Source: Parelaphostrongylus tenuis
Taxonomy: Eukaryota > Nematoda > Chromadorea > Rhabditida > Metastrongylidae
NCBI GenBank assembly: GCA_019055375.1
Contig: JAHQIW010000834.1
Span: forward strand, 1 to 64,000
DNA: 64,000 nt
Reading direction: 5' to 3'
Part shown: positions 6,631-63,785 of the stretch, piece by piece
Position numbering within the stretch: position 1 is the stretch's first letter
Layout of the letters: each line of letters opens with the position of its first letter
Made by a program: the position numbers and the translations under genes
Notes under the pieces: generated by a model
The model's input: the letters and a program-made list of their open reading frames with translations, nothing else
What the model was told of the DNA's origin: nothing
Databases searched by the model: none

Positions 6631-6666
6631 CAAAAAGAATGCTTTAAGCCTAAACGAGGTTGTTAC

Positions 6667-6722: not shown

Positions 6723-6763
6723 CCCACATTAAGCCCTGCACTGAAGCAAGGAGGGAGGCGTAT

Positions 6764-7047: not shown

Positions 7048-7136
7048 TAACAACCTCGTTTAGGCTTAAAGCATTCTTTTTTGAAATTATTTTGAATGTT
7101 TTTTGCGAGGTTTTAAAAAACAGTCGATCCGACGAA

Positions 7137-7148
7137 TAAATACACTTT
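7137..7148. repeat. Right 12-bp target-site duplication
   Basis: TAAATACACTTT, identical to 6619-6630, lies directly after the end of element alpha-1. Confidence 0.8.
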
Positions 7149-13498: not shown

Positions 13499-13612
13499 TT
13501 AACAAAGGTTCTGGTCCAAGCAAATGACTTTATGACCAAAATGCCTTACTTCGGACTTACCGAGCAATCATGTCTTTCTTGTTGATTGAGCCTTCACAAT
13601 GTTATCATAAAC

Positions 13613-15556: not shown

Positions 15557-15584
15557 AATAAGTTGTTCGTGATGAGTTAGTAAA

Positions 15585-15889
15585 GAGCGCATATGGCGCA
15601 GTGGTTAACGGTCAACGGGTGATTTGTGTCGCACACAAGGTCGATGGTCAATGGTCGATCTTGTGCTCGGCTCAAGCCAACCATCATTCCGGAGTTGGTA
15701 AATTGGTAGCAGACTCGTATCCAACTTGTCTGGGAGGATAAGCAGCACTGACTCGATGCAGCGGGAGGCCGCCGCGATCATTGTAAAGCCAGATATGCAT
15801 TCAGTCACCACAAAAGAAGTTACAAATTCAAGACGAAGGAATGACGCGCATCTCAGGGATTGATCAATGCCGAGAGCTTTGCCCTTATT
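15585..15889 (+). mobile_element. SINE family A copy with target duplication
   Basis: The head GAGCGCATATGGCGCAGTGG holds an A-box-like motif. The B-box area is damaged by a short duplication and insertion (GGTCGATGGTCAATGGTCG). The body and 3' block (GATTGATCAATGCCGAGAGC) match the other copies. A 17-nt repeat flanks it: 15561-15577 (AGTTGTTCGTGATGAGT) and 15893-15909 (AGTTGTTCGCGCTGAGT), with two mismatches, consistent with LINE-type retroposition. Confidence 0.85.
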
Positions 15890-28981: not shown

Positions 28982-29315
28982 GTGATAATATTTTCAAAGC
29001 CTTTCAAAGGGTCTTGTTATGGCATTCGAGTGGTATATGTAAGTTTCTGGTAACAAGGCATATAGTAATACCTTCGCATCGACTGTGTTGGAGACCACGC
29101 TTTCTAACATTCAATATATTCTGATAGGATTTTCAAAGCGTTTCAGTCTACTACGATACCGCTATCATTTGTTGCAAGGGTGAACCGTAAGGGCATGTGG
29201 TACTGATGAGGCCTACGAACTACGCCGAAACGTATGTATAAACCTCGAGTGCCATAACAGACCACTGAAAGGCTTTAAAAATTCTGTCAAAGAATATTGA
29301 ATTCTCAATAAGCGA
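28982..29315. mobile_element. Hammerhead element beta, foldback copy
   Basis: The left arm (CAAAGCCTTTCAAAGG...GTTATGGCATTCGAG) is the reverse complement of the right arm (CTCGAGTGCCATAACAGACC...GAAAGGCTTT). The right arm carries a hammerhead (29191-29253). The left arm keeps only a decayed ribozyme 3' part (reversed: CCAGAAACTTACATATACC). It lies directly beside the CA microsatellite. Confidence 0.7.
29191..29253 (+). ncRNA. Hammerhead ribozyme, beta copy with intact core
   Basis: CUGAUGA is at 29203-29209. Stem II is GGC/GCC (29210-29212 and 29224-29226), with further UA/UA pairs inside an 11-nt loop. GAAA is at 29227-29230. Stem III is ACGUAUGU at 29230-29237, with A at 29238 before cleavage. 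Stem I is irregular: UA/UA, then GG/CC across an AA bulge, then GGCA/UGCC farther out. Core bases match the consensus; the weak point is stem I. Confidence 0.72.
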
Positions 29316-29354
29316 AGTCTCAAACACAGTCGATTGGAAGGTATTGCTATCAAA

Positions 29355-29410: not shown

Positions 29411-30538
29411 CCAAACGCTCACTCGCACTCACGGGAGAAATGGTATTTGAGCAGCAATCTCAAAATTGAATTCAATAATTATTTTTTTGCTTCCGCAGTA
29501 GCGATGCTCTGCTTTATGTCGTGAGCAACAACCGTTCTCACCACGGTAGCACCGACTGATTCATAGACCAGTGACCTTGCCTACCAGACCACACCTAGTA
29601 AAATTAAGTCGACCAATCAACACTCCGATCATGGTAGATATAAAATTTTGTACTGTACTAGTTGAACACAATTCTGTGTTGCATCGTCCCTATGTCTCTA
29701 GTTGGGCTATCAGATTCGTTTATTGAATTCTAGAGAAACATAATCTAGTTGCACTTTCTTGCTATCGCACCCAGTTAGACGTTAAAGTTGATAAGGTTGA
29801 AACATCAAGACTATTTCAGTAAGACAATCAATCATTATTATATATTCTAAACGTGACTTCGGGACCAGATTGACAGACTCCTCATCTTTCTTTGGTCACT
29901 CAAACTTTTAGCACTTGCTCTTCTAAAATATAATGCGCTGAATATTTTGATATCTCTAGTACGGCCTTCCGACTAATTTCAGTGTTATTCACTGATCTCT
30001 TATATTTCAGATAGGCAAACGTGAGGTTCTGAGCGTGTATGCTACATTCTTGACGAGTTTCACGTTCTTGGGAGCGCGGCAAAATACCGCATTGAGGCAC
30101 AGTTGAGTAATTTTTTATAATTTTTAATTTTTTAGCGTTTTAGAATATTTTTCAAATTGCCAGAGAAAATCTGCAATTGATTTCATATGTTGGATAGTTT
30201 TTCAAAAAAATCATGGTTTAGATAATTTGTCTCTATACGATGCAAATTCTAATTAATGCGGCAGTGAATCCGCTGCGAAGATATCAGTGAAACATCTTTT
30301 TTTAAATTGTGCAAACTGCATTAATTTCATCATCTGATCTCCATTTACTTTTTCTTTCCAAGTGTATACGAAAATACTGCTAATGAGAAGAGAGAACGAA
30401 TACGAAGTAGTAGAATAGTTACTCACTGCCTTAACTATTTTCTACTTTTTCTTCCACTTTGTTTCTATCAAACTGGTCATTCAGATATAAACCATTCACT
30501 CATGCTCGTTACTTTCAGTGTATAATAGTATAAAAAAA
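29411..30538. other. No recognisable gene
   Basis: AT-rich, with no domain or repeat similarity that I can support. Confidence 0.4.
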
Positions 30539-30830
30539 GCGAAGGTGACGCAGTGGTTAGAGGTGCTTTGCGTTGAACACGAGATCAATGGTTCGATCTC
30601 GCGCTCATGGCTCACCAAGCCATCCATCCCTTCGGGGTCGGCAAACTGGTATTAGAGTGGTCTCAGGCTTATTCGAGAGGACAAGCAGCACTAACTCGGT
30701 ACAGCAGGTGGGCACCGTGAGTCATTGTAAAGGCCATATATGCATTCAGTTACCTCAGGCAAGGTAAAAAAATGAAGACAATGCATGGCGCATCCTTCAG
30801 GAATTGATGAACGCCGAGAGCTTTATCCTT
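30539..30830 (+). mobile_element. SINE family A copy
   Basis: The head GTGACGCAGTGGTTAGAGG and the B-box GGTTCGATCTC (about 30.59 kb) are followed by the standard body (CCATCCATCCCTTCGGGGTC, GTGAGTCATTGTAAAGGCC) and the tail ATTGATGAACGCCGAGAGCT. ATAGTATAAA occurs just before the head and just after the tail, a likely target-site duplication. Confidence 0.85.
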
Positions 30831-34694: not shown

Positions 34695-34990
34695 AAGCGC
34701 ATATGGCGCAGTGGTTAGAGGTGCTCTGCGTCGCACACGAGGTCAATGGTTCGACCTTGCGCGCATGGCTCACCAGCCCATCCTTCCCTCCGGGGTCGGT
34801 AAATTGGTACCAGACTGGTCTCAGACGTGTCTGAGAGAATAAGCAGTACTGACTCGATACAGCGGGAGACCACCGCGAGTCATTGTAAAGGCCAGATATG
34901 CATTCAATCATTTCAAACGAAATCAAAAATTGAAGACGAATGCATGGTGCATCCTTCAGGGATTGATCAATGCCAAGAGTTTTTTAACTT
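34695..34990 (+). mobile_element. SINE family A copy, well preserved
   Basis: The head AAGCGCATATGGCGCAGTGG is followed by B-box GGTTCGACCTT, then GGTCGGTAAATTGGTACCAG, GCGAGTCATTGTAAAGGCCA and the tail ATTGATCAATGCCAAGAG. Apart from a few substitutions it is close to the copy at 60.53 kb. Confidence 0.88.
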
Positions 34991-36051: not shown

Positions 36052-36240
36052 AAGAGAATAGAGTGGTGGGCAAAGACGCGACCTTAGATGAGAGTCGAAC
36101 CCGTGTCTCATCCATATCGAGAACGCGTGCTACCACTACACTACCGAGGTATATTCGCACCACCACTCATTCTTCAATGGATGGATGAAACACGGATTCG
36201 ACTCTCGTCTGAAGTCGTATTTTTGCTCACCACTCAATTC
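36052..36240. repeat. tRNA-like foldback repeat
   Basis: The arms at 36052-36118 and 36174-36240 are inverted copies over about 65 bp; left AGTCGAACCCGTGTCTCATC pairs with right GATGAAACACGGATTCGACT. The left arm and loop hold a 70-nt tRNA-like sequence on the minus strand (36081-36150). It starts ACCTCGGTAGTGTAGTGGTA, with D-arm GTG/CAC, a B-box-like GGGTTCGACTC and partly pairing ends. The right arm repeats the T-arm part in opposite orientation. It resembles an Asp/Glu-type tRNA turned into a palindromic repeat. Confidence 0.65.
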
Positions 36241-39239
36241 TAGATATCATGGTAATTTCACTAACACTCGTAAAAACAGTGGAGAACATAGTAGATCCGG
36301 CCTCATACCCATGTCAGTGATTCTATGAGTCCTCCAGCTCCAAATTATGCTTATGATATGTTGCATAACATTTGTCGTTCGATGTTCTCGATCGAAGGAA
36401 ACCTTGTTCATACAGCGTTTCTTTGAATAGTCATGGACGGAGTATCCACAGCTTTTCACAGAGCCACTGCCCAATACATGTAAAAATCAAAAAAAAATTT
36501 ATTTCACGTCATGAAACTTGTGTCAAAATCACTTGCTTTATCGAGGCAACAGTTCATTTTGAAAGCTTGGCCTTGTAGAGATGAAAAAGAGAGCTGTTGA
36601 TGAAAATTTAAGCACAGGTTTCAAGATGACTGACAATTCACAAGACAGCACGGCCGTGTGTTGAACGTCTCCAATGATGCGTCACGCTCCTAATCGGTTC
36701 ATCCTATATTCACTCTGTCGCTTCTGTTCCTCTAACCAAGGCGAGATATTTGTCTGGCGATTTTTGGCCATCTACTTAATTACGAGATATGCACTCGCCT
36801 ATTCCGAGTAGTTCCTACGATCCACAAGTTTCGCCCCGACTTACATCGCCCTCTGGTACGCATGTGTTATTGTTTTTCAAATTTCTGCTAGCGGCATTAT
36901 AAATAGAGAACCTCGGACAACAGTGACAAGTCTTTTGTCTGATCAAAGACTTACAAGAAGTTCTTTGCACTAAGGTGATATTTAGACCGTTCTATCATTA
37001 GTTTAAAGAGGAGAACAAGGTGGGATTGAGACTGTGGCGCACTTCTTACTATCATTTATCCTAGTCAACTGAGCTTTTTTAAACTAAAAATCAGCTCAAA
37101 GATTCTAATAAGAAGTTTTCAAAGGCTGTTAACATACTTTGTATGAGTCATAGAGCTACATTTTGAAACGAGCAAGACTCCAGGTATTTTCTATGTGCTA
37201 TAAGTTGATTCTGTTTTCTCTCTATATTTGACAGTTTTTTCTGAAGTGTAGCGTGTCTAGTACCGATGAAATCATTCTGAGGAATTGAAATTTATTCTTA
37301 CGAGGTACTCTCCATTTTAGGCTCTTTGAGCAGCTTTTCTTGAAATACTTCACTCCAATGCAAGCGTTTATGACAAGACTAATGAAGTAAGGAGTGATTG
37401 GCGTAAACGAGAACATCAAGAACGAATAGTTTCGAAATCACGTATAAACAGCAAAATTCTGTTCATCGAAATTGTTCTCGAAGCTAAACTCTTACAATAC
37501 TCTACTAATAAGTAGTCAGCTTCTCTAAGCGTCACTTATCAAATTTATGACTAACTATTCTCCTTTATGGCTAGATGGTCGTACCCATGCCGTCCAAACA
37601 AAAAAAAAACAAAGAAACGAACTTCTATAGACATGTTCCCCCGTAAACCTTTCCATACCAGGAGTTGCTATTTGATTTTATGGCACAACAAAAAACAAAA
37701 AATTGGAAGCATCCCAACTTTTTTAGTATAAAAAAGGTTTTGTTCCTACTCAGTGAAATATAGTAGTGCCTATTAGGCGACTTCCGCGATCCGCCTAATT
37801 GCCAGAGACGCGACGATGACGATGAAGAACGTTAGTTGCCTTCATCAGCAGATTTTATCCCCTTCATCCACCCCCTTTCTTTGTTAATTCATCATTGTCT
37901 ATTATTTTCAATTTTTTGTAAATTATGCGCACAGGCGTGTTCTTGATTTACTTGATCAATTTGATCCCATCCTTTTGTCCAAATCTTCTTTACTCTATAC
38001 GACCCTCATACGGCTCACATTCTCCTGCGCATCCTTGTGCTTTTCTAGTTGCAAAAGAAGATCGAATATACTTCCCGATTTTGTATTTTCTCGGAAAAGC
38101 TATGATCAAGAGTATTGTAAATCAACTGTTCTTCAATCCCATCATCACCAATCAACATATTTTCTTTGTAGATTGAACTTGTTGCACGAAGTGGGCAAAT
38201 AGTAATTTTAATCTCGCAATCGACTATCATCGGTTTTGAGGAAGATGACACCCGTCGAAACATTGCTCCAATGGATTAATTCTTTACCCACCTCGTGATG
38301 CACGTCTAATCAACGAAGAAAATATAATTAAAAGTGATAGATAGGATGCAATCAAAGACATTAAGCGACTAAAAAGAGTGTGAAGTAACAATGGGATGAA
38401 TCGTTTATGTGTGTATGCGTACACTACCTAACCACTTTATCGATCTATTTTCCTCTTCTGCGTCATTCTGGCTTGTTATTAATATTAGAAAAAAGAGTAA
38501 TTTTGCTATGATGAGCGATATTACTATTACTCATGTACTGCAATATTTTTCGTTATATGTTACTTCTCTGTGTGAAGTATGTTTAGGGTAGGCGTATTCC
38601 AATTCCGCACTACTTAATACCTGCTTAATACCACGCTTTCCTGGGAAGATAGCAGCACTGAATTGATGCATTACTAGGCCCCATCAAAGTAGGATAGTTA
38701 TGCTTTCAGTCATCTCTACCATGTGTGAAGAAGTGGAATGCCTGCCACGTCCCTCAAGGACTGATCAAAAGCAAAAGTATTGGCCTCTTAAAGTATGTCT
38801 AGCTTGTCAAACACGAAGTCTGGTTGTCTCACGTAACCACTAGAAAAAAAGAACAAGAAGGGGCGATGCACTTTTTTATAGATTTTGGTGATTTATATGA
38901 TGAGCTTCTTGCTTCTGTTGTGTCGGACTGGCATGTCCTTCCAGACACGTTTGATACACTATATTATATTCATGCATCCTGTGTTGGAGGTTCTTGCGCC
39001 TATAGACAGTGTTGACCGTGGCTGATCCTTTTTATCACCAAGGCTCCCATCTACATAACACAAAGTTTTGTGGAATGAGTTTGTCCATAATGCTCGATAA
39101 TGCGTTCCTAAATAATTACAACAATGATTTTAGTGGTTTCTACCCTTCAATTTTGAATTTTGTCAAGAGTTCTTTGCATTTTGTTTTTCTTATTTTCAAT
39201 ATAACGAGTCAAATCCATCACGTTTCAAATTAAAACAGT
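36241..39239. other. No recognisable gene
   Basis: The 37.8-38.28 kb stretch ends with GATGACACCCGTCGAAACAT, reminiscent of family gamma ends, but I could not define an element. A SINE A fragment lies at 38.61 kb. Confidence 0.35.
38610..38795 (+). mobile_element. SINE family A, 3' half, diverged
   Basis: TTTCCTGGGAAGATAGCAGC, CTTTCAGTCATCTCTACCA and CCTCAAGGACTGATCAAAAG follow the order of SINE A body and tail blocks. The tRNA-like head is missing. Confidence 0.5.
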
Positions 39240-42245: not shown

Positions 42246-42359
42246 TTCTTATGTTTCGAGTGCTTTCTTAAGACCACAGCTCAAATTCCAACATGCCAAA
42301 TAATCATTTTTGAGCCATGCATGTCGTGTGGACTGTTCATAAAAGGGTTGACTTATAGA

Positions 42360-42402
42360 GCCCGATAAACGTGCTTCGACCGTGCAGTCTCGTCAGTCGC
42401 GC
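42360..42402 (-). ncRNA. Hammerhead ribozyme, decayed copy
   Basis: On the minus strand the core CUGACGA is intact and stem II is GACU-GCAC-GGUC. GAAA has become GAAG, and stem III (GCACGUUU) has lost pairs. Stem I GCGCGA/UCGGGC has one mismatch. The G at the last A of GAAA, with the broken stem III, predicts poor or no cleavage. Confidence 0.75.
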
Positions 42403-42565
42403 AGTTATCCTTTCTCTTCCATTGCCGATCCTGTATGGGTACAACCCTCTGTGTTCGGTGATAATTTTACTGCACATGGAGTATAAAACCTTGGTCGTCG
42501 CTAACTCTTAGTGTGGGGACTGGAGCATCCACACAGGATTGGCAAAAGACGAGAGAGGGTGAACT

Positions 42566-42608
42566 GCCCGACTGACGAGACTGCAAGGTCGAAACACGTG
42601 TATCGCGC
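42566..42608 (+). ncRNA. Hammerhead ribozyme, beta copy with intact core
   Basis: Stem I is GCCCGA (42566-42571) with UCGCGC (42603-42608), five of six positions paired. The core CUGACGA is at 42572-42578. Stem II is GACU-GCAA-GGUC at 42579-42590, a GNRA tetraloop. GAAA is at 42591-42594. Stem III is ACACGUGU at 42594-42601, and A at 42602 precedes cleavage. Compared with the 51.28-kb copy (GUCU/GGAC), both sides of stem II changed together and pairing is kept. Confidence 0.87.
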
Positions 42609-42680
42609 TCTATAAGTCAGCCTTTTTGAAAAGACCTCATGACATGCGTGGCTCAAAAATAATTACTTAGCGATAACAGT

Positions 42681-46265: not shown

Positions 46266-47226
46266 TGTATGTGTCGTATATATGCCAATTCGTCAATAGC
46301 ATGGTATGTTTCTTCATCAGATGACGCGGTTCAAAGGAAAAAGAGCTAGCTATGGATGCTGCACACTGAGTTTCTTCCTACATTCGAACTTCCTCTCAAA
46401 TTTTTCAATCCATTAATGAGCTGTATGTTAGTGTATAAATAAATGTGCACGTGAAGTGTAATTTGTAGATTAGTGAGTATCAATTTTCTACGGCACTTTC
46501 CGCCATCACAAGTTGTGCGTATTCTAGCAGTTGATTTTGATTTGCTTCTTCGTATTTTGATTCACGGAAGTCATCGGATTTGCTTTGAATTAACTTGCTG
46601 CTTGAGCAATTCCCCTCTTCACAAATACGTCAAATGCTTTTTTGAAACTAGAAAATTCATGTGTTACAGCGTTTGCAAAGTTTCACTATGGGTTTTACTA
46701 GCTTTTATGATTTGTGGAAAACATTTGATCCGAAACAAGTCTGTTACCACTTTCTCACTACCGGAAGCACGGGAGACGTGATGAGCTTGAGAACGGCCGA
46801 GTAAGCGCCTTGTACATATGGAACGGCAACACTGCTGATTTGTGTGATACTGAGATTTAAATTCATCCTCAGTATGCACGTTTTGTAACTTTTTAACGTC
46901 CAGAAGTATACAAATTAATCAAAAAAAAACGTTAAGGACAAGATCGCCTCTCACACATTAGTGGGATTAATTCAAAATTCTCATTCGGCTTTTTTTTGGC
47001 GAGATCTCATTAATGAGAGTGAAAACAGCATAGATATAAAAAGTAGTTCCAAAAGCACTTTTGACTTTTGTCATGCACTCCTCGTTCATTGGCTCCGTAT
47101 AAATATATCCTCGGATAACTTAATCCCCACAATCTCTTGGTACTTTTTCGCTAGACGGAATGAAATAAAGAAACGATCCCTTTCACTGAACAAGAAATCT
47201 TCATAAGAGTGTAAATTCATCTAATC
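46266..47226. other. No recognisable gene
   Basis: A 102-codon frame at 46473-46781 shows no motif and is overlapped by open frames on the other strand. I do not call it a gene. Confidence 0.35.
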
Positions 47227-47300
47227 GGCTGTTCTTGAAACCTCGCTTAAACTTCCAATCTATCCTTTGAGAATGTTCAAAGCCATACCGAGATTGTTAA

Positions 47301-47357
47301 GCCAGAGCCATACATACGTTTCGGAAGTATCGCCTTCTTGATCAGTGGCCCACGCCC
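47301..47357 (-). ncRNA. Hammerhead ribozyme, alpha-3 minus copy (core mutated)
   Basis: On the minus strand, stem I pairs GGGCCA with UGGCUCU and the core reads CUGAUCA (G8 to C). Stem II is GAAG/CUUC with a GCGAUA loop. GAAA and the near-palindromic stem III ACGUAUGU follow, then A before cleavage. Because G8 is catalytic, this copy should be inactive. Confidence 0.75.
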
Positions 47358-47523
47358 CACACTGACCCTACTCTATAGCATCGATGGGAAGGCGTTGTTT
47401 ATGATGATTACATATGATAATGTGTTATCACTACTTTTTTCAGTCGATGAATTGCTACTGGTAGTAAATATATATAAATGTATCTTATCGACTGTTTTTA
47501 AGAAAGGTTAGGGTTCAGCGTGG

Positions 47524-47580
47524 GGCATGGATCGCTGATGAAGAAAGCGATACCTCCGAAACGTACGTATGGCTTTGGCG
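47524..47580 (+). ncRNA. Hammerhead ribozyme, alpha-3 plus copy (stems decayed)
   Basis: CUGAUGA (47535-47541), GAAA (47558-47561), the perfect palindrome ACGUACGU (47561-47568) and A at 47569 are intact. Stem II is weak (GA/UC only) and stem I has lost its pairing partner. Confidence 0.65.
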
Positions 47581-47712
47581 TAGTAGTTTCGGTAAAGCTC
47601 CAAATATTTTTATAGGATATATGAATCTTCATGAGAGTGCTAGAAATTCGTAGAAAGCGTAATCTCGGGCTACTGCGCTTTGCACTCGTTTTTTGAAAAG
47701 GCCTCATACCGC

Positions 47713-50299
47713 TTAGAAAGAGGAGAAGTTTTGTGTTTCACACAAGCGTAATTCTCGCAGGACAGAGCTCTTCTTCCAAACTACTAGTAACCATTCAATA
47801 GCACAAGTTTTGACAATTTCATCGCCATGCTTATTTTCTGAAAAGTCGTTTTACTGCAGCTTAGCAAAGAAAAAAGATTGGGTTTCTGCCGCTTATATGC
47901 TTGACGAGAGGGTGTGTGCAAGATCACTACGAGATCAATCGATCGCGCTGTGAGGTGCAACTTCTGTTGTTGAGTATAGGATTTTTCTCTATCAAAAAAA
48001 AAAACTCCAATTGAAACGTATGACTCACATACTCGAAGATCTCCTCTACAAGCAGATATGCTTTTCGTGCCTCCACCAAATTCTGAGCACATATTAGGGC
48101 ATTCCATGGATTTTGGCACTAGAGTAATAAACACGAAATTTGCTAATTAGAAGTAACTAAAATTGCATAATCTTGGTATCGTCAATTTCGCATTTTCTTG
48201 TGAACATTTTGACATGCAACTTCTCTTTACTCGTTTTGAGATGAAGCAAATTAGTTTTCTACTGGTGCACGAATGAGGCATAGGAGAGAATGTTAGCAAG
48301 CGGCGCGCAAGATTAGTGCAACTCGGGAAGATGATATATTGCAGAATGGAGTTCGGGATATTCAAAGCTGAAGAGAACAGTATGAATGATCTGTTGGGCT
48401 AGGGGCGTTCAGAGAAAGCTCCATTGATCTTGTGAGCAGCTTCACTAGCATTTTCCCTACGAGCCTCTCAATGCATGAGAGCAAGCGAATTTATTTCCAA
48501 GACGACTTCATTTCGGTCATCGGCAAGTTTTAAACCAAAATGCTCACAAGAAAATGCGCAAGTGACCGATACCAAAATCGTACAATTCTGATTACTGCTG
48601 GTTAATAAGTTTGGCGTTTATTGCTCTATCGCGAAAACTTATGGAATGACCTAATGAGAATGAAAACGAGCGACGGGTGTAAAACATAAATTATTTCTAA
48701 ATGCTATAGTATTACAAAAGGAACTTTTCAAGAAACGAGCACATTGCGCACTAGTCCGAGGTTTATGGTTTTGAATGATTTATGACGCTTTTATGAAAAG
48801 TTCCTGTAGCAAGAGGGATCGTTTCTTCATATTCTCCCATTCCACGGAGAAATACAAATTTTTTTCATCCGTCATAAGCTTAATCTTTAACTGTTTTCCA
48901 GATTTCTTTACCAACAGCTACTCGACCACTGCACTATTGTCTCGATTCTTTGCGGCATCCACCTGGTCTGCGCTGTTATCTCGCTCATGTTTCTAGTGTT
49001 TTGTTTTTTGAAGAGGAAATTTGGCTCTTGTTACCAAATGCTACTTCACGCTTACTTATTGAGTATCGTGAGTTTTGCACTCAATGATAGAAATAAAAAG
49101 AATTTCTTGAAAACTTCGCTACTGCAGACTTCTTGTGAAGAAGAATAATGTATTAATAATCAAGCGGAATTCGCATATTTGACCGTCTCTTGCGGTGGTG
49201 TGATTTTAGAATAAACCCAATAATGTAAAGTGGTGTGCAAAAACATTTGCATCAGTTGGGATTCAAACTCAGATCTCACTCTCAGAGACACCACTCTGAA
49301 TAATGTATGTCACGCGTCTTTTTGTCAAACCTCGTTTCAATTTTTCACCGAGCTACATAACATCTTCATGCTTTTCACAGAGATTTGAACGTGGACCTAA
49401 ATTAACCAACTGAGTTTTTTCATGAACAGATATTCAGATCCGTACAGTGCATGTGCACGCGAACTGCTTCAAGAATAACAATTGCCCAAAGACTAGAAAA
49501 AGGATCTGCGAAGTGTTTAGAGGGTAATGCAGAAGTGCAGCGAACATGCCTGTCTTTTTTGAGAAGTGAAGGGTAAACAAGTCGCAAATGTGTTTGTGCA
49601 CTTTTGAGAACAACTCGATAAGCTCGAATTTCTATGCAAATGGAAAATGCATCGAATGATCTCACAAAAAATCTCATATCCCCTGTGCGGGAAGAGTTTG
49701 ACTTTTCAAACTGGCTTACTCTTTTGTGAATGTGAGTGTAAATTTCGGACTGCTCAATCTCAGTGACCAAGAATTAACATCTATCATATATCGTAGTTTG
49801 AGAGCATCAGTAACCGTGATGAAATGATGCTTCAAAAGATGGAGACTTATAAGAAAAGTTACTGTAAAAACAGAATGACGACGGCTATGAGTTCATAGTT
49901 AAAGTCCCCATCAAAATCAATACTATTTAGTGCTCGGACACCTTTAGAAGAATATTACTCATTTAATGGCCAATGTGACGGGTGAAAGCTGCTCATTCGA
50001 TAACTTCATACACATCTAAGTTCGCGAAAAAGAGCGCTTGTTGCGCAATGAAGTGGCAAACACCAGTCGTTCGTATGTTTTTGTCCTCATGTAAGAGTTT
50101 AAGCAAATTTTGGTAGTAATAATAATAATAGCGACAATAATAACAGCAACCATTTGTAGCATCTGTCTCCTCGTTTATCGTCAAGTGACTCAAGCAAACA
50201 CCTACAGAACTTCCATTTATCCCAATTGAACGCAGAAATAGCCTGATGAGCGTACTTTAGTGTAAGGTTATAGGGCATCATATCTCCCTCCTATGATTT
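47713..50299. other. No recognisable gene
   Basis: A tRNA-like fragment at 49.2 kb is listed separately. The remaining open frames (up to 116 codons) have no recognisable motif. Confidence 0.35.
49215..49310 (-). repeat. tRNA-like repeat family D, fragment
   Basis: On the minus strand, GAGTTTGAATCCCAACTGAT (B-box-like) is followed by GTTTTTGCACACCACTTTAC. The same block follows the tRNA-like sequence at 62.35-62.44 kb. Confidence 0.5.
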
Positions 50300-50772: not shown

Positions 50773-50877
50773 ACCTTTATTTCGAGTGCTTTATTAAGAC
50801 TACGCTCAAATTTCAATAGATTCTTTCATTGTTATTTGAGCCAGCTTGTCATGTGGTCTGGTGAGGGCTCTTGTACA

Positions 50878-50920
50878 GCCCGATACACGTGTTTCGTCCT
50901 TACAGACTCGTCAGTCGGGC
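50878..50920 (-). ncRNA. Hammerhead ribozyme, beta-1 minus copy (full consensus)
   Basis: On the minus strand, stem I GCCCGA (50920-50915) pairs perfectly with UCGGGC (50883-50878). The core is CUGACGA at 50914-50908. Stem II is GUCU-GUAA-GGAC at 50907-50896. GAAA lies at 50895-50892, stem III ACACGUGU at 50892-50885, and A at 50884 precedes cleavage. No core position deviates. This and 53603-53645 are the best candidates for a working ribozyme. Confidence 0.9.
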
Positions 50921-51274
50921 AGAACCCGTCGTCTTTCGATATTTTTATAGTCAATTCTCTCGGGAGCTCTACTTTCTTACAGAGAGTCATCAAAGACGCA
51001 CGTTTTAACACACTATGTTAAGTGAAATTTTCACCTAACACAGAGTGTTGCGCACTCGATTGCTCGTTGGCTGGTATTTCTATCATATTATACCTTTATT
51101 TCGAATACTTTATTATGACCACGCTCAATTGAGCAATCGAGTGCCCAACACTCTGTTTTAGGTGAAAATTTCACTTGGTATAAAGTGTATAACGTTTGTT
51201 CTCGATGACTCTCTGTAATGGAGTTAGAGTCCCGAGAGAACTGACTATAAAAATATCGAAAGACGACGGGTTCT

Positions 51275-51317
51275 GCCCGACTGACGAGTCTGTAAGGACG
51301 AAACACGTGTATCGTGC
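51275..51317 (+). ncRNA. Hammerhead ribozyme, beta-1 plus copy
   Basis: Stem I GCCCGA (51275-51280) pairs with UCGUGC (51312-51317), with one C-U mismatch. The core CUGACGA is at 51281-51287. Stem II is GUCU-GUAA-GGAC at 51288-51299. GAAA is at 51300-51303, stem III ACACGUGU at 51303-51310, and A at 51311 precedes cleavage. Confidence 0.88.
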
Positions 51318-51382
51318 TGTACAAGAGCCCTTATCAGACCACATGACAAGTTGGCTCAAATAATAATGATAGTTTCTGATGA

Positions 51383-52115
51383 ATCGTTTCGTAAATTTTA
51401 ATCGGATATTATTGCCACAGGTGTTCTCGAAATTGGCCAACATCCGTCCAGCTTGGCTGTTATTTGTTGCTATAAGTACGATGTCGTAAGCGAAGAGAAG
51501 GTGCTGTTGTTAGCCGTCGATTTTCACTCCCACACTGTTCCATTCTAATGTTTCAATGACGTTTCAATGCTAGACATTGAATGAATATGGCGAAATAATG
51601 TCGCTATGTCGAACCCCTCTTCTTACATCGATAGTATGTCGTTATAGAATGGCGATATTTTGATTGTGAAATCTTCATATAGCTCGCGAAGAATAATGCA
51701 CTGAACATGGATACCGTGGTTGTCCAAAGCTTATCAGACCGCTTCTGTTTACGCTAAATCAAAGCTTTCTTAAAATCGATGGAAGTGGGACACAGCGGTC
51801 TCCTGTACTCTCGCAGAGCTTTGATAGCTTTGTTATAGTGGTAGTAGTATTCTTTTCAAAGCCCTGCTTTTTCTTATGGCTTTCCTCCGTTTAGTGCTTT
51901 GTCGATCCTGTTCAGAATAACCCAAGTGAAGGGCTCATAATCGACAGACGGCAGGCAGATTGGGCGATATTTGGTGATGACGTGAGGGTCTCTTTTTTGG
52001 AACTATAAAGCGATTTTTGTAGTTTTCGTAGGAGCCTTGCAAATTCACAAGTAGCATGTGAAGTGCCGAGCCACATTGTTTAGAGTACTGGTGAAAGGTT
52101 CTTAGATGCTTCGGT
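51383..52115 (-). mobile_element. RTE-like LINE reverse transcriptase fragment
   Basis: Minus-strand translation reads in order: KYRPICLPSVDYEPFTWVIL with NRIDKAL, then REYRRPLCPTSIDFKKAL (RT block with the first catalytic Asp), GVKIDG, HLLFAYDIVLIATNN and MLANFENTCGNNIRLKF. These are successive RTE reverse-transcriptase blocks. The catalytic FADD box is altered to FAYD (codons at 51483-51494), and stops and frameshifts are present. Upstream remnants (LLRKLQKSLYSSKK, against the family's VPSQWKTS..LLYKKGD) reach about 52.1 kb. The endonuclease domain is not found. Confidence 0.82.
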
Positions 52116-52940: not shown

Positions 52941-52973
52941 AAAAGGACCGAGAAATAAATTCGTTGTAGTTCT

Positions 52974-53283
52974 AAAAAAGAATGTTTTTACCCTAAACGA
53001 TGGGTTGGTACGCCAGAGCCATACACCGGTTTTTCGGAGGTATCGGCCTCCTCGTCAGTGACCCCCGCCCCACATTAAGCCCTGCATTGTAGCAAGGAGG
53101 AAGGCGTATTTGGTGATGGTATTGTGTACAATGACACTAGTCAATCACCACTGTTCAGCGATGGATTTCGGCTGGTAGACCAAAACGCGGTGTATGGCCC
53201 TTGTGTACCAACCTTGTTCAGGCTAAAAACATCCGTTTTTGGATTTATTTTGAATGTTTATCACGAGGTTCTAAAAATGCGAC
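52974..53283. mobile_element. Hammerhead element alpha-2
   Basis: The minus-strand copy carries the alpha tail (reversed: GGGTAAAAACATTC), ribozyme 53013-53066 and the block GCTACAATGCAGGGCTTAAT. It ends with the hairpin region corresponding to 6764-6805. Near 53184 the orientation flips, and a plus copy begins inside the ribozyme's stem III (CGCGGTGTATGGCCCTTG) and continues with the tail (ACCAACCTTGTTCAGGC, TTATTTTGAATGTTTATCAC). The plus copy therefore lacks the ribozyme core. Confidence 0.75.
53013..53066 (-). ncRNA. Hammerhead ribozyme, alpha-2 (intact core)
   Basis: On the minus strand, stem I GGGUCA pairs with UGGCUCU (with G-U pairs) and the core CUGACGA is at 53058-53052. Stem II is GGAGG-CCGAUA-CCUCC and GAAA lies at 53035-53032. 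Stem III is AAACCGGUGU with one A-G mismatch, and A at 53022 precedes cleavage. The core is complete; only stem III is slightly weakened. Confidence 0.82.
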
Positions 53284-53539: not shown

Positions 53540-53775
53540 TAATAATATAATCTGGCAATATATTTTGCGCTTTTCATGAGGCCTCTTATGGGCACTTATA
53601 CAGTGCAAGACACGCGTTTCGGCCTTACAGCCTCGTCAGTTGCACGGTGCTTTTTCGTTCGGTATTTTTGGTATAGGTGTCTGTAACAAATCTCAAGAAA
53701 GGCTCGGAATATATTGTCAGATTGTATTATTCTTGAGCGAGATCTAAAATAGTCCGTTGATTTTCTGTCGAATAA
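53540..53775. mobile_element. Hammerhead element beta-3, foldback copy
   Basis: The minus arm has ribozyme 53603-53645 and the tail (reversed: GCGCAAAATATATTGCCAGA). The plus arm repeats only the tail: AAGAAAGGCTCGGAATATAT, TGTCAGATTGTATTATT and CTTGAGCGAGATCT. AAT-rich sequence flanks both sides, so the element probably landed in an AAT microsatellite. Confidence 0.75.
53603..53645 (-). ncRNA. Hammerhead ribozyme, beta-3 (full consensus)
   Basis: On the minus strand, stem I GUGCAA pairs perfectly with UUGCAC and the core is CUGACGA at 53639-53633. Stem II is GGCU-GUAA-GGCC, then GAAA at 53620-53617. Stem III is ACGCGUGU (one G-U), and C at 53609 precedes cleavage. Stem I here is GUGCAA/UUGCAC, whereas 50.9 kb has GCCCGA/UCGGGC: different bases with the same pairing. 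Confidence 0.9.
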
Positions 53776-53804: not shown

Positions 53805-54656
<852 letters not shown>

Positions 54657-54658
54657 CC

Positions 54659-54690
54659 TTAATAATAATAGTAATAATACTAATACTGAC
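54659..54690. repeat. AAT repeat, right remainder
   Basis: AATAATAATAGTAATAATAC continues the array after the SINE. Confidence 0.85.
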
Positions 54691-57110
54691 CGATTAGCTA
54701 TAACTCCTGCTTTTTGTGTCGGCAATAAACTAGTTCTTTTGTATACCAGAACACTTGGCAGGTTTTAATGGGAAGATGACTATGGGAACTTTGCTTATAC
54801 TTACGGAAGTGAATTTACCCCATCTCCTTGAGAATATTGCACGTATGCCCTCATATCACTATGGTCCACCACAGTCACGATGCTGTCAATGTTCGGAGAG
54901 CGTTTTCAACCATATGTTGAGTGTAAATTTGCATTTTATATCCGCTTGTATGAACATGCATTAAACAACTCATGAAATGATTCTTAAAAGGACACAAATA
55001 TCTCGGTGTGACAAAGTAAACGATCGAAAGGAAATTGTGTTACATATGAATCACCTTAACTAGCTTGTGCTTGGCAATATAACTAATTTCGGTTAACATG
55101 TGAAATTGTTTGTTATTTAGTTCGAGCATAATCACAGAACTTGCAGCTGTTAATGGGTCTGACGTCGTTGTTTGCTGTAATGTATTTGCCACTATCGTTC
55201 TTACAAGAATCACATTCACTCAGTGAGGGTCAGTCGTCTACGATATTGTCTGATGTATTCTGACCATCCAAAAGAGTATGAAAATGTGTCTGAGGGGTTT
55301 TTCTTCAGTTTTCTTTTTTTTCTGTACATATGTTGAATGTTAGATATTGGAAAAGATAGTAAATATGTAGCAAAATTTATACTTTACGTATGTGTACAGT
55401 GCAGTAATTCTTCACTCTGCCAACTTCTACGGTGAGTATCGGACAAGCACTTAGTAAATTGTGCAAATTTATCGAGAATTTTCTCGAGTTTTGCTTCTGT
55501 TGAAATGATGAGATCACATTACGCAATAAATGAGATTCGTTTTTCTCTCGCAGCAGTTTATGCAAAGCAAAGCTTCGAATTTCAACAGAGCTGTTAGAAT
55601 AACTACTTGTAGTTTTTACATCGTAGCTAAGTTATCCGAGTTTTTAGGAATGCACTATCTCTTCCTTTTCGGATCTGCAGCTGGTATGCTCGCACTGCAG
55701 TTCATACAGAAGAATCTCGTTGAGCAAATGTTGCCGCTCATGGAGAGCAGCTTTGAATGATTCGGATGAACCTCACTAATCACGATGTTCATGGATGCTT
55801 AAGTCGCGAGTGTTTAAAAATAAACTACAGTCACTTTTGTATTCAACAAGGAGGAAGATTCTTCAAGAAACGGGTTGATTCCAACGATAAATCTGGTTGG
55901 CCTGCGATCAACGTAAACATGATTTTGTGAGGTCATAGAGCGAAAATGCTCTTCCAAAAAAGTTAGGCAAACTACAACATTTATTTTTACTTCTTCTCTT
56001 CTCAGCAGCTATGTTTCTGTTGCTTTTCATATTCTGAGAATAAATTAAGAGAAATCAGTGTAAAAAACAATTTTAAAGGCTTTTGCAACGGGCCAATTCA
56101 TTTTCTGGTCCACTCATTTGAATTCTAGTTTCCAGTTTTAAATATGAGGATATTCTAGAGACTTTCTACTCACGGCATACTAGCGACAAATTTTTTTCAG
56201 ACAATCGAAACAAATAAAGATGACTCCGGTAGGAAAGAATCTTAAAGCTGGCTCAAAAATAAATAGGGATAAACTACTGCGAACTTCATAATTACATTTT
56301 GTAACAAGCATTTTGATGAGGTTGCTGTTGTACATCATATTGTGGCTTTTTTCACGATCTAATGCGTAATGTCTTTTCGAATGCACAGTATGCATCGATT
56401 TCTTGATTGGTTCAAGTGATACCCTCAATGTATAAAAATCGTACTGTTTTGCTTTGTGTGTTCGAACTGGAAAATAAAATATCGTTGGTGACTCTAAATA
56501 TCACAAATAAAGCTAGGGATACCGAAGATCTTTCAGACAAACATTGATTCTTAGAGATCCATCGTAAAGACATAAGTCTCCATAGCACAGAAAGTGACAT
56601 CGCACATCAGTTCACGGTAACTTTCTGAAATCAGCAATCGAAGGCCCCTTCGAAAATTTTTTGAAGGTATCTACAGAAGTGCAAACTAGCAATTTGACAA
56701 TTCCTCATTTTGAAGCCACTAACAAATTGAAAAGCTCGATCGAGGTGTCGCACTCAAGAGGTATTGCGCTGATGGATTAATTGGCCTAAGAAAACGGCAG
56801 CGAGATCGTCGTTACAAAGTGTGTTCTTTGTTCTAATATGTATACCAGCAGCACTGAGGCTAACATAGGGAAGATATGCGACTGCCTGTCTCAAATCTAT
56901 AAAAATACATCCCAGATAAGGCGCGAAATCACGCTTGATGGCGATACAGTCATCCTTGTGATTCAAATTTGGATCTGGACGGCGATACAAAACGCCTCGA
57001 GAATATTCGTTCTCAGGTTTTCGCTTCTGTGAGTATGTCATATCTACTTTAAAGTTTTTCTCATCATGCGTCTGTACTGTATGCGTGCCCTCAGTGTGAG
57101 ATATTCTTTT
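54691..57110. other. No recognisable gene
   Basis: The 142-codon minus-strand frame at 56754-57182, the longest in the window, begins inside a mariner 3' end and has no recognisable domain. A 76-codon frame at 55530-55760 (VAKLSEFLGMHYLFLFGSAA) is also unassigned. Either could hide an exon, but I cannot support one. Confidence 0.35.
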
Positions 57111-57847
57111 ATTAGACTGAAAAGAAAGTTCTGAGACATACAAAAAATTGAAAATTTGTGCACGAATTCCAAACAAAAGCAATAATAACTATTCTTCAAA
57201 ATAGAGGCCACCGTTTTCTGTGACTTTCTGGTTGATCAAGTGCACCCGCTTCTCGTCCAAAGCCACGATGGGTTTCCAAAATCGGTTATTCAGTAAATTC
57301 TTGAGCAGATCGCGACAAATTTCTACTCCTTTAGCGGCTTGTGCTTCATTGAGCTAGTGTGAATCTTATCATGGCTCTTGTGAAAAGAGTTAAGCTGATG
57401 GAGATGAATTAGCGCAGTTGTATGAGAAACATCAAGTTCGGTTGCCAGTTCGCAAGCACTTGACGGGAGTTCATTTTTCCAAGCTGTTATCAAATCTTCG
57501 TTGTTCAACTATGTCAGACGTCCTGAACGAGGCTTGTCCTCGAGGTCAAGGTCTCCAACATTAAAGTGCTTAAAATCAGCGTCCAGTACCAGATTTGCTT
57601 GTTGTGCCTTCTTTTTCAACTTCGTTGATTTCCTCAACCGCAGCTCGCTGTAGAAGACTCTTTCTCCATCAATGGCGCAATAAAACACAAATTTCAATTG
57701 CATTGTTTGGGTATGGCAGAGTCTTGTAACAAAGTAGACGAATAATATCTAGGTCTTCAGTGTGAAAATCCCCCACTAAAAACTGCAATATTTCCATGAG
57801 TTATCTCATACTTATTGAAATGCCCCAGAACTTTCTTTCCCGCCTAG
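57111..57847 (-). mobile_element. Mariner-family element with internal deletion
   Basis: The ends are inverted repeats: left ATTAGACTGAAAAGAAAGTT, right (reversed) CTAGGCGGGAAAGAAAGTTC. On the minus strand the N-terminal part reads LKFVFYCAIDGERVFYSELR, FKHFNVGDLDLEDKPRSGRL, an in-frame TAG, then NNEDLITAWKNE and ACELATELDVSHTTALIHLH (helix-turn-helix). After a frameshift comes RFWKPIVALDEKRVHLINQK, with the first catalytic Asp in DEK. The frame then jumps directly to VTENGGLYFEE and a stop. The second and third catalytic Asp regions are deleted. Confidence 0.85.
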
Positions 57848-57974
57848 TATTATGGACATAAAGTGGTCTACTCGTTTCGCCATATATTTGTGCCGCACAC
57901 CTAGCATGAGATCAAGTAAACTGTACCCATATTCATGCAGCCACCGTCTTTACCATTAGACCATTTTATTAGAT

Positions 57975-58545
57975 CTTCTCACAAGTTTTGGTATGGGGGC
58001 GATAAGCACCAAATTTGAAAGCCGGATATAATTTAAAATTGTTTAGCAGCGCTACTACAAGAGAGTCATCAGGCTGAGCACATTTGTGCAATCTCTGAGG
58101 CAATAAATCAATGCCACTTTCTATAAGATGTTCTGAGCTTTCTTTCGATACCAAATTTGTCCATACCTGTCGCATCATGGCGACTCAACGAAACCTTCAT
58201 CGCAATTTGCTCCTTTACGAGGACGATTTGGGAATGGACTGGGATTTGCTGGATCATCCGTCATACCGTCCACTTGTCGCCACCTCACCTCCTCCTGCCG
58301 CTGGAGTACTTCATGAGCAAGAAGAAGTTCCGAGACATCAATCATCACTGTCAGGGATTGACAGCTTTCTTTGAATCCAAGCATGTTTAGCTCCATGCGC
58401 GCGGTATTGATTTGGAGCCTGAGAGATGGCAGAAATGTGATCAAGCTGTGTCGCATACTTTGTATAATGTTATTAATCAACTTCAATTACTTCTGGCTGA
58501 TGAATTTGGTGCTTATTGTTCTAATGCCAAAACTTATGAGAAGGC
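57975..58545. mobile_element. Palindromic mariner derivative (two 3' ends head-to-head)
   Basis: Both ends carry the same terminal sequence in inverted orientation: right AATTTGGTGCTTATTG...GCCAAAACTTATGAGAAGG, left its complement from 57975. The plus arm encodes a mariner C-terminus (MDWDLLDHPSYRP, FMSKKKFRDINHHCQGLTAF, LEPERWQKCDQAVS, EFGAYCSNAKTYEKA). The minus arm encodes the end of the same protein (DLLPQRLHKCAQPDDSL, KFGAYRPHTKTCEKI). The 39.24-39.61 kb copy is the same subfamily without duplication. Confidence 0.8.
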
Positions 58546-60102
58546 CTAATAATTTTTTTGTACAGAAACGATGGCACAAACGGTCTTAGCAGTAAGAATA
58601 CATGAGTTCCACTGTCCGCGTATTTTAGCTGTATTGAGCCTTTTTCCTACATCCTTTGTGCTATTCGACAGCTTAACTCTCTAGACTTAATCAACGTATT
58701 TGATTTTCCAAAGTGGCTACTTTAGAGCGCTGTTGCAGGCAAGAGATCACTGCTTTTCGCCTATGGCGCGTATTCTCTTTTCTCTAAAAAACCTAGCTAT
58801 GTGAGGGTTTGTGGTTGGCCCTTTAACGCACTTTCAGTAGCTATCTGGGTGGCGTAAATTCCGATGCTTCTTAATGTAAGTGTGAAAATTGAGAAGATCT
58901 CGATGGAGTTGTGAGAAAAACGAAAATATGACTACATTTCGAACTCTTCTCGGTTTGGATAAACATACTAAGAAAACAAAAACCATAATAAATTGAAAAT
59001 AGTCACGCTCCTCACATCACACTCTCTCCAGCCATGCTGATCTGGTAAACATCTCGTAGAGTTGGCAGTTGTGCACGCCATAACTACGTAGTAAAGAAGA
59101 AGAAATTGAGGATGAAACGAATAAAGCAATCGCCTGATGTGCTTGCTGGACAGCTTTCGGCGGTTTTGAGGAGTTTCAATTTTGTAGCAATCATGAGCAT
59201 GTTTTCTTTTATATTATGAACGATTCTTATTTAAGCCCTCTTCTTCAAAGATCCGCGATGCTCAGTTGAATTAGTGCTGTACTTATGAAGGGCTGCACTA
59301 CTTCTGCCCTTGATCATTTGAGAACTTCGATAATCGCTACTGTCTTGACAGTCATGTAGCAGTAAGGCGCTATATCTCCGTACGATACGCTTCACTCAGC
59401 CGCACATGGTGCCTATAGCTTGGGGTTATTTCATGCTTAAGTGATGACTAATCGTCTTAAGCTTATCTGTTGTACAGAGAACAGCAGTTACAGTTCAGCT
59501 TTGTGAAGAAGGTTCAAAGAAGCGCAATTATTTCCCAGCTATACTGTAATCTTTAGAACTGACAGGAAATAAACGACTTCATAGGAAGTCTGGTTAAGAA
59601 TTGATAATCAAACGTTCCCAAGAAAGAATTGCTTCTTTTTGGAACACCCCAGGGGGAGGAAATGTATTACGAGAAGAAACGACACTGACTGTTAGGAAAC
59701 GATAATGCGAACCATAATGACAGTTGTTCATAGAAGGAAATAAATAGTGACCCTCGCTTTCGATAAGGTTAATGACTCTACCTTAGAAACAATGAGATGA
59801 TGTTGTGGAGGAAACTAGCCATTTCTTTGGTTTGGTGATTGTGTTTTAGGAGAGAGGAAAACGAAAAAATGGAATATTCTTTGCTTGAGGTTCCGAATGG
59901 AGACTTGGGCACATACAGTTTGGATGTGGTGTAAAAGGAGCGACTGTGCATAAGTTGATACACAAGATATGGAGCATAAATTCCAAGTGGAGAATTAATG
60001 TTGGCAAGCTAAATACAGACGAATTTGCAAGCTAAGATGGAAATCCTCCGCTTCATCATTTCGTGATGAAAACTACAAAGTACCAAATCTATTCATGCCC
60101 GC
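58546..60102. other. No recognisable gene
   Basis: Short frames only; no repeat or domain similarity noticed. Confidence 0.4.
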
Positions 60103-60530: not shown

Positions 60531-60828
60531 TGAGCGCATGTGGCGCAGTGTTTAGAGGTGCCCTGCGTCGCACACGAGGTCAGTGGTTCGATCTCGCGCT
60601 CATGGCTCAGCAAGCCATCCATCCCTCCGGGTCGGTAAATTGGTACCAGACAGGTCTCAGACTTTCTGGAGGATAAGCAGCACTGACTCTGCTCAGCGGG
60701 AGGCCACCGCGAGTCATTGTAAAGGCCAGATGTGCATTCAATCACCTCAAACGAAGTTAAAAATTGAAGTCGAATGCATGGCGCATCCCTCAGGGATCGA
60801 TCAACGCCGAGAGCTTTATCCTTATATC
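60531..60828 (+). mobile_element. SINE family A, best preserved, with 14-bp target duplication
   Basis: The head GAGCGCATGTGGCGCAGTG is followed by B-box GGTTCGATCTC, the full body and tail GATCGATCAACGCCGAGAGC. TATATATCCACCGT occurs at 60515-60528 and again at 60833-60846, a perfect target-site duplication. This points to recent LINE-type retroposition and defines the element ends. Confidence 0.92.
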
Positions 60829-62440: not shown

Positions 62441-63149
62441 TGTTTTATTAGGTCTAGCTTGCTTTCCATTTTTTTTTTTGTTTTTGGAAAGATAACTCTC
62501 GTATTCGACTTTCATGTGCTAACATTAGCCTCCGTCGTCCGCAACGGCACATTCTTTACAATGGAGCCTTCTTACATTTCTTTAAGAGTGTATTAAATGG
62601 GAATTTAATATGAAAGATTCTTATTGCTTACTCTTTTTATATTTATTTACATTATTGCCAAAACTTTTTAGTGACATGTAGAATCAAGCTGATCTAAGCA
62701 AAATACTGAAAGGTTTCTATGAGCAAAGAGTGAATTACAGGTAAGGAGGGTATAGGAAATTTGAGACGTTCATTCTTGACAGCAAGTCGTATGCCTAGGC
62801 CAAACTTTGGTGATTATATCACGCAACGGTGTCCATATGTACAGTGCATGTTAACATCAGTGCACATACTCTTACTTAAGTAAAGCGGCGATCTCGTGGC
62901 TTGTTAATTGTCTAGAGCAACATTAAATAGCTCAGAACTAAGGTGCAACGTTTGTTCTCAGCTAGACAATGACATAGATCACTCTATAAGGAAGTCAACT
63001 AACTTATGGGACTCTCTATCGTGACCTGTACAAGCTTTGACGGATTAGTGTTTTACTCGATTCCTACATCAACTCTTCAGTAAACTATGCAAATTCCCGC
63101 TAAAGTAGCAGCACAGTTAAAGACCTTTGGGTGTTAATTATTATCTCTC
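62441..63149. other. No recognisable gene
   Basis: Unassigned. It could contain upstream regulatory sequence of the gene starting at 63907, but I see no defined motif. Confidence 0.35.
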
Positions 63150-63237
63150 CATTCGATAGCTTTTCAATAGACCTCGCTCAAAGACAATAATAGTCTGATA
63201 ATGATATTACATGTTCTGAGCCGTTTGTGAGGCCTAA

Positions 63238-63284
63238 GTGCTACACAGGTGCCTCTTCGTCCTTCGAGACTCTTTCAGTAGTAC
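63238..63284 (-). ncRNA. Decayed hammerhead motif
   Basis: On the minus strand the core has an extra base (CUGAAAGA). Stem II GUCU-CGAA-GGAC is kept, GAAA has become GAAG, and AGGCACCUGU is a damaged stem III. Probably inactive. Confidence 0.5.
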
Positions 63285-63420
63285 AGTCCCTCGGTTTGGC
63301 TGACCTCTTGATACTATACTCCTCTATGAAGGAATCGACGCCGAGCAATAAATCACTGCAAATCAAGTGGTGGAATTCCCTGACATTGCAGTGATCAGCA
63401 GTCGAGCTTGTGACTGCTAA

Positions 63421-63439
63421 ACAGGCGCCTGTCTAGCAT
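63421..63439 (+). ncRNA. Hammerhead remnant: stem III palindrome
   Basis: ACAGGCGCCUGU (63421-63432) is a perfect 12-nt palindrome at the position of stem III, followed by C and UAGCAU, the expected cleavage-site C and stem I start. The core upstream is lost. Confidence 0.45.
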
Positions 63440-63654
63440 GTAGACCTGAAAAACGGCTCAAAACATGTTATATCAATATTAGACTATTACTATTCTTGAG
63501 CGAGGTCTATAAAAAACGGTCGAATGAAGAGGTACAACTCATTTTAGCAGCTAAAAGCTTGCCTGCTGCTCTCTGTAATGTCAGGGGATTCTATCATCTA
63601 ACTTGAGGTGATTTACTACTCGGCATGGATTTTTTCTAGGAGAAGCATGGCCTC

Positions 63655-63785
63655 AAATGATCGCCTGAGCTGAGGAACTGCGCTACTGAAAAGTCTTGAA
63701 GGGCGAAACAGACGCCTCTATAGCACTTAGACCTGAGAAACGGCTCAAAACATAATATGTAATTATCAGACTATTACTTATTTTT
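63655..63785 (+). mobile_element. Hammerhead element beta, single decayed copy
   Basis: Ribozyme-like sequence at 63680-63726 is followed by the beta tail TTAGACCTGAGAAACGGCTC and ATTATCAGACTATTACT. It lies about 120 bp upstream of the partial gene. Confidence 0.6.
63680..63726 (+). ncRNA. Decayed hammerhead motif
   Basis: The core is CUGAAAA (G8 to A). Stem II is GUCU-UGAA-GGGC. GAAA at 63705-63708 is intact. Stem III ACAGACGCCUCU is partly paired, A precedes cleavage, and stem I GCGCUA/UAGCAC is mostly paired. Loss of G8 argues against activity. Confidence 0.55.

Follow-up and report, generated by a model that had tools for sequence, protein, structure and literature searches.

The minus-strand motif at 50878–50920 of the window (the whole 64,000-nt stretch of DNA that was analysed) is, on convincing sequence evidence, a predicted hammerhead ribozyme inside a small and abundant mobile element that carries no gene and belongs to a nematode genome. 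We consider it probable that this element is an ORF-less, non-autonomous, retrozyme-like retroelement, which carries a minimal type I hammerhead and is mobilised by Penelope-like elements (PLEs). PLE-type copying machinery is proposed because of the way in which the copies are inserted. Hammerhead ribozymes, retrozymes and PLEs are all known kinds. In the literature searched (the 2014 work on PLEs and hammerheads lies outside its scope), the nematode host, the abundance and the PLE signature on ORF-less elements appear to be new.

The hammerhead motif and its support

Read on the minus strand from 50920 to 50878, the sequence runs GCCCGA / CTGACGA / GTCT-GTAA-GGAC / GAA / ACACGTGT / A / TCGGGC, and the conserved hammerhead parts follow each other in the order that an earlier note on this DNA had described. 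Stem II is closed at its loop by a U-G pair, and cleavage is expected 3′ of A50884. The CUGANGA and GAA core, the three stems and a cleavage position other than G place the motif in type I. The same note recognised a type I hammerhead whose stem III is self-complementary and has no loop, lying in a non-coding nematode repeat, and pointed to PLEs and retrozymes as the elements in which such hammerheads are known; this agrees with the results below.

The Rfam search proposed in the earlier note was run, and Hammerhead_1 (RF00163) matches 50878–50920 over its full length with 31.6 bits (E = 0.0007 over the entire window, E = 1.6e-5 in a 1.5-kb stretch). This score and the 28.2 bits of a mirror copy do not reach the gathering score of 34, so that a default Rfam scan omits the motif. 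The sub-threshold score is that of a short minimal hammerhead variant with a significant E-value. The core and stems are present as claimed, but with this score the wording "full consensus" was slightly strong.

A type I descriptor (stems I and II of at least four pairs, stem III of at least three, at most one core mismatch) finds five hammerheads in the window, compared with none in 20 Markov-1 windows. When the six motifs of the window that belong to the same family (family A), decayed ones included, are aligned, 93.1% of the cells are paired. This alignment has a covariation score of 0.400, while shuffled alignments average 0.181 and none of 500 is as high; slid structures score at most 0.094. 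Between motifs, GTGCAA/TTGCAC takes the place of GCCCGA/TCGGGC in stem I, and GACT/GGTC and GGCT/GGCC take that of GTCT/GGAC in stem II. The descriptor counts and the covariation exclude a chance motif. In ViennaRNA folding, the motif does not stand out (z = −0.75), which is expected because ViennaRNA scores the hammerhead structure poorly. Matches to Rfam MIR821, MIR4208 and WsnRNA46 across the palindrome described below were also considered and rejected, as they fall below their cut-offs and reflect the long hairpin.

The element and its relatives in the window

The motif lies in a head-to-head palindrome with a tail on one side (Table 1). The earlier note had described a single hammerhead in a repeat. 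The repeat was correctly recognised, while the hammerhead is one of two in a tailed palindromic retroelement of an abundant family; the mirror hammerhead, the palindrome, the further hammerheads and the element ends all go beyond that description. The palindrome is imperfect, with an inverted self-match of 84% over 578 columns and arms that are 87–88% identical. The two copies of the tail form a direct repeat with a spacing of 319 bp, which is the unit period of family A. In family B, the period is 268 bp. Both are without a retroelement ORF, and a short ORF-less repeat of 150–450 bp with a type I hammerhead is one of the features of metazoan retrozymes. The element interrupts a decayed LINE ORF, which has no Pfam match and which we take to be of the RTE type.

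Table 1. Positions of the hammerhead motifs, palindromic elements and related features in the window
Feature	Position	Strand	Evidence or remarks
Type I hammerhead	50878–50920	minus	RF00163 31.6 bits, descriptor, covariation
Whole element: head-to-head palindrome (arms 50812–51383) and one-sided tail (50773–50809)	50773–51383	minus	611 bp
Mirror hammerhead on the other arm, reading outwards	51275–51317	plus	RF00163 28.2 bits; one stem I pair broken
3′ tail of the sense unit (37 bp)	50773–50809	minus	Second copy in the palindrome centre, 51092–51128; ends of genome copies
Decayed LINE reverse transcriptase, split by the element	51384–51509	minus	Frame ends near 51385 and resumes near 50770
Second family A palindrome	42250–42671	plus	Hammerheads 42566–42608 (plus) and 42360–42402 (minus, decayed)
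Family A type hammerhead, stems I and II different	53603–53645	minus	Descriptor, no core mismatch
Family A type hammerhead	9972–10014	plus	Descriptor, one core mismatch
Family B palindrome	6631–7136	plus	Hammerheads 6991–7046 (plus) and 6670–6719 (minus)
Decayed family B element	52979–53267	minus	Hammerhead core 53032–53058 (minus)
Palindrome with decayed hammerhead-like core	47212–47623	plus	Core 47535–47561 (plus)
Palindrome with decayed hammerhead-like core	28983–29350	plus	Core 29203–29230 (plus)
Palindrome with 287-bp direct period	63140–63778	plus	Core near 63670, strongly decayed
Decayed PLE pseudo-LTR fragment	7991–8117	plus	73% to the L069 pLTR, E = 4e-16
Decayed PLE endonuclease-region pieces (56901–57110 and 57892–57957)	56901–57957	minus	tblastn E = 5e-6 and 1e-4

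By our own reading, 7 of the 12 close inverted-pair loci of the window contain a hammerhead or its remains. Decay affects the elements at 29, 47, 53.0 and 63 kb as a whole. The family B palindrome at 6631–7136 is flanked by an exact 12-bp target-site duplication (6619–6630 and 7137–7148), and a match of at least 12 bp is reached by none of 3000 random pairs. A possible duplication of the decayed family B element consists of a 10-bp match (52969–52978 and 53268–53277; at least 10 bp in 13 of 3000 random pairs), and the flanks of the palindrome at 47212–47623 have an exact match of 9 bp, or 15 of 16 positions by eye. Among ten ORFs of the window, Pfam lists one family, below its cut-off. One exact hammerhead pattern has 0 matches in viral_contigs, and the palindrome has no match in plasmids (distant mode).

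The window also contains inverted pairs without a recognised hammerhead at 13565–14028, 48093–48655 and 57966–58552. Another palindrome (36055–36241) contains a tRNA-Ile(GAT)-like gene (36080–36150, minus; 37.9 bits; Rfam and ARAGORN), with a related stretch at 16930–17027. Further repeats are a very long (AAT) microsatellite at 53805–54365 (~188 units, 98% matches), a dispersed ~290-bp repeat with copies that are 73–88% identical (15580–15888, 30538–30830, 34696–34983 and 60533–60817) and a repeat pair at 3727–4027 and 54361–54663. A frame at 57509–57748 (minus) is without a Pfam match and presumably resembles a mariner transposase fragment.

Abundance and host

Abundance was estimated in 20 stretches of 10 kb at arbitrary positions, all of them on contigs where copies had previously been located. 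The descriptor finds 12 hammerheads, which lie within 6 of the 20 stretches; in three Markov versions of these 200 kb it finds 0, 1 and 1. Scaling up to the genome gives, as a rough guess, on the order of 30,000 hammerhead motifs; the figure is only rough because the hits cluster.

The nematode host is supported by a tandem array of SL1 RNA on another contig (C3131, locus L070), with a period of ~568 bp and 36 full-model matches. The best of these scores 47 bits, which falls short of the gathering score (75), and none of 14 control genomes has a match. One copy of the array was read and aligned to RF00198. It starts with GGTTTAATTACCCAAGTTTGAG, which we take to be the nematode SL1 exon, followed by GT. 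The exon is present in this array and was not found in the other genomic loci searched.

The earlier note knew of no such element from a nematode, and at the level of titles and abstracts no report of a hammerhead element in a nematode was found in the literature searched, the scope of which did not extend to Cervera and De la Pena 2014 on PLEs and hammerheads. The string "nematod" does not occur in the main text of PMC7229834, PMC3088659, PMC7761336, PMC6155905 or PMC11722881.

Architecture and insertion marks of the genome copies

The assembly (481.5 Mb, 5105 contigs) was searched with an 81-bp query. The best 40 of 157 candidates were scored, are 96–100% identical to the query and were all retrieved (L002, L009–L047), which makes the sample non-random, the query being centred on the hammerhead and the candidates being the best-scoring ones. 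Two of the places (L013 and L041) are the same insertions as L012 and L039, with identical junctions and flanks, leaving 38 distinct copies. These comprise 26 head-to-head copies, 11 one-strand copies and one complex copy (L047); none has only a tail-to-tail arrangement.

The two outer ends of the head-to-head copies are not equivalent. In 25 of the 26, one arm and no more extends to the tail (unit position 354 or beyond), and in none are both arms tailed. The non-tailed arm ends ~40 nt short of this, at unit positions 307–324, in 22 of the 26. The exceptions are L015, L027 and L043, with short arms ending at 281, 279 and 287, and L037, the arms of which end at 155 and 311 without a tail. The inner ends, which meet at the central junction, are spread over unit positions 3–272. 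Because these inner ends differ between copies, the palindromes appear to have been formed anew at each insertion and not copied from a master. Most copies are head-to-head, and some contain partial direct dimers (for example L009, L016, L022, L029 and L044). Two one-strand copies, L046 and L033, begin close to unit positions 316 and 295, respectively, and run as far as the tail, which is thus found at both ends in an R-region-like manner.

Flank match scores of at least 9 are found at 26 of the 40 places (24 of the 38 distinct copies) and in 17 of 528 mismatched control pairs. The matched flanks, which represent target-site duplications, are 9–17 bp long with at most one mismatch. Exact flank matches of 15, 12 and 12 bp are also found in the one-strand copies L017, L019 and L033. 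With their head-to-head repeats, one-sided tail and short target-site duplication, the hammerhead elements thus carry the insertion signature of PLEs. Against the PLE reading stand the one-strand copies and the weak flank match of the copy at 50773–51383 itself, which is 8 bp and not significant alone (at least 8 in 43 of the 528 control pairs). The identity between arms is 0.913 within loci (26 pairs) and 0.899 between loci (2372 pairs). Values of this kind are expected also if the arms diverged after insertion, and they do not decide whether the two arms of a locus came from one RNA.

Long inverted arms and flanking duplications would also be produced by a fold-back or MITE-like DNA transposon whose inverted repeats hold hammerheads by chance. 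We regard this as highly improbable, since the duplication length is not fixed, the ends are asymmetrical with one tailed and one short, the centre is different in each copy, and 11 of the 38 copies are one-stranded, with partial direct dimers in some. The symmetric terminal inverted repeats and fixed-length duplication that define fold-back elements and MITEs were not found in the copies.

PLEs in the same genome

A genome search for the GIY-YIG domain (PF01541) gives 1723 candidates, of which 150 were scored, all above the cut-off. Among the matches listed, there are at least 20 pairs with the minus-strand match on the left and the plus-strand match on the right within 5 kb (own reading). 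PLE coding matches occur in 6 of the 20 sampled 10-kb stretches. Two PLE loci were read. In the first (L068), one continuous ORF of 895 aa encodes an RVT_1 domain (42.8 bits) and a GIY-YIG domain (32.1 bits); the locus also has two direct 320-bp repeats that are 99.7% identical and a 14-bp flanking match, given without a shuffle control. The second (L069, 499–5749) is palindromic in head-to-head order (99.8% over 2159 columns). Its right arm contains an 892-aa ORF (RVT_1 and GIY-YIG), and the frame in its left arm is truncated to 634 aa. A tail of ~45 nt is present on the right arm only, and the flanking match is 12 bp, also without a shuffle control. The near-perfect palindrome of L069 suggests a recent insertion or gene conversion between the arms. 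By eye, the pLTRs contain a minimal hammerhead (CTGAAGAAGGCGAACTGCCGAAACGTC).

The comparison with L069 also bears on LINEs as the source of the machinery. Twin priming is known for LINEs, and a LINE, for example the presumably RTE-type element of the window, might mobilise the elements by twin priming on two RNAs. LINE remains are present in the window, and duplications of the observed length fit LINEs too. The two fixed starts ~40 nt apart, one per arm, together with the head-to-head order match PLEs including L069, and we consider mobilisation by a LINE quite unlikely.

An ORF with reverse transcriptase and GIY-YIG domains is absent from the hammerhead element and present in the presumed helpers L068 and L069; the hammerhead element is not classed as a PLE because it lacks this ORF. 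Apart from a tail motif, neither family A nor family B is similar in nucleotide sequence to the L068 and L069 pLTRs, which is a further point against the PLE reading. The motif, CGAGGT..ACAGTCG, is common to the PLE tail, family B and related tails. Its score is reached by 3 of 2000 shuffles for family B and by 21 of 2000 for the element at 29 kb. Family A (123 and 1487 of 2000) and the elements at 63 kb (125 and 1371 of 2000) and 47 kb (274 of 2000) give no significant score. Among seven further PLE-flank or pLTR stretches, six are at 13 to 85 of 100 shuffles and only L050 stood out (1 of 100). We treat the tail motif as a lead only.

A possible, more tentative origin of the elements is that they are solo pseudo-LTRs or internal-deletion derivatives of PLEs with homologous pLTRs, and not an independent lineage of retrozymes helped in trans. 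The architecture is the same as that of tailed PLE pLTRs, the many GIY-YIG candidates point to many PLE copies, and solo pLTRs are among the structures described in rotifers (PMC3846280). The absence of similarity to pLTRs speaks against this origin; it concerns the two PLEs read out of many loci, which makes it a weak point.

Comparison with known systems

In the account of Arkhipova et al. 2013 (PMC3846280), PLEs have inverted pLTRs, one of which is 37 bp shorter, a 31-bp tail and duplications of 8–10 bp, and head-to-head is the commonest order. With the protein of an Anolis PLE, both strands are cut and then extended, and reverse transcription starts at two adjacent internal sites, the interval between which is the tail (Frangieh et al. 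2024, PMC11167929). The head-to-head order, the tailed and the shorter end, the short target-site duplications and the minimal type I hammerhead described in these two sources are shared by the elements reported here, whereas the 319-bp unit is without an ORF and dissimilar in nucleotides to the two PLE pLTRs read. In the in vitro data on the Anolis PLE, the start site is the same for the top and bottom strands. This differs from the one end of each kind found per palindrome here, and as far as those data go it counts against the PLE reading.

Metazoan non-LTR retrozymes (PMC7229834) are described as ORF-less repeats of 170–400 nt with type I hammerheads, low GC and target-site duplications of more than 4 bp, all of which are shared with the present elements. 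In that description they form direct tandem repeats, whereas here the copies are mostly head-to-head palindromes with a one-sided tail. The schistosome Sm-alpha and W elements (PMC8490949) are likewise hammerhead-bearing non-coding worm repeats; their host is a flatworm, and the likeness is drawn from their description only. The satellite hammerheads of salamanders (in PMC7229834) share a weak stem III that makes action as dimers likely, and differ in being tandem satellites with loop-loop tertiary contacts.

Proposed mechanism

The sequences contain hammerheads, palindromes with two fixed ends and variable junctions, and flank duplications, and the same genome has PLEs whose frames are intact and whose architecture is the same. 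From these we infer transcription, cleavage, circularisation and the use of PLE protein in trans. Multimeric transcripts would be cut by the hammerheads into units of ~319 nt, and the hammerheads would probably act as dimers because stem III is loop-less. A PLE would supply the reverse transcriptase and the GIY-YIG endonuclease in trans, and both strands of the target would be cut with a stagger of roughly 9–17 bp. Each 3′ end of the target would then serve as a primer for copying element RNA, with one start close to the tail end and a second ~40 nt further upstream. After extension over variable distances, joining of the two cDNAs would produce a target-site duplication and a head-to-head palindrome in which one arm has the tail and the other is short. 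For the inverted pLTRs of PLEs, self-priming on an antisense template is the cause favoured in PMC3846280. The unequal inner ends found here would fit two separate cDNAs better.

The role of the ribozyme in this mechanism may be limited. In the Anolis system, hammerhead mutants still insert and cleavage needs the protein (PMC11167929), and because such mutants insert, the ribozyme may not matter for insertion. The hammerheads could then be inactive relics in an element that spreads without them, a view that would be in line with this independence of PLE insertion in vitro from hammerhead cleavage and with the 14 of 58 sampled hammerhead stretches that fail the core test. The compensatory changes between families and the intact cores of the other 44 of 58, a share inflated by the hammerhead query, argue for functional hammerheads, and we find the relic view unlikely.

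In the proposed mechanism, PLEs act as helpers. Cervera and de la Pena 2020 (PMC7229834) proposed this role in retrozymes from the coexistence of the two. We lean slightly towards the view that hammerhead retrozymes are hitch-hikers of PLEs, that their RNA mimics the region in which PLE reverse transcription starts at two sites, and that they are present here as tens of thousands of motifs, mostly in palindromic insertions. The near-identical palindromic PLE arms suggest that PLEs have been active recently. The structure of the insertions is itself a clue to the helper, and with the presumed helper and its parasite in one genome the question becomes testable. If the proposed mechanism is true, the insertion signature would reveal the machinery that mobilises animal retrozymes.
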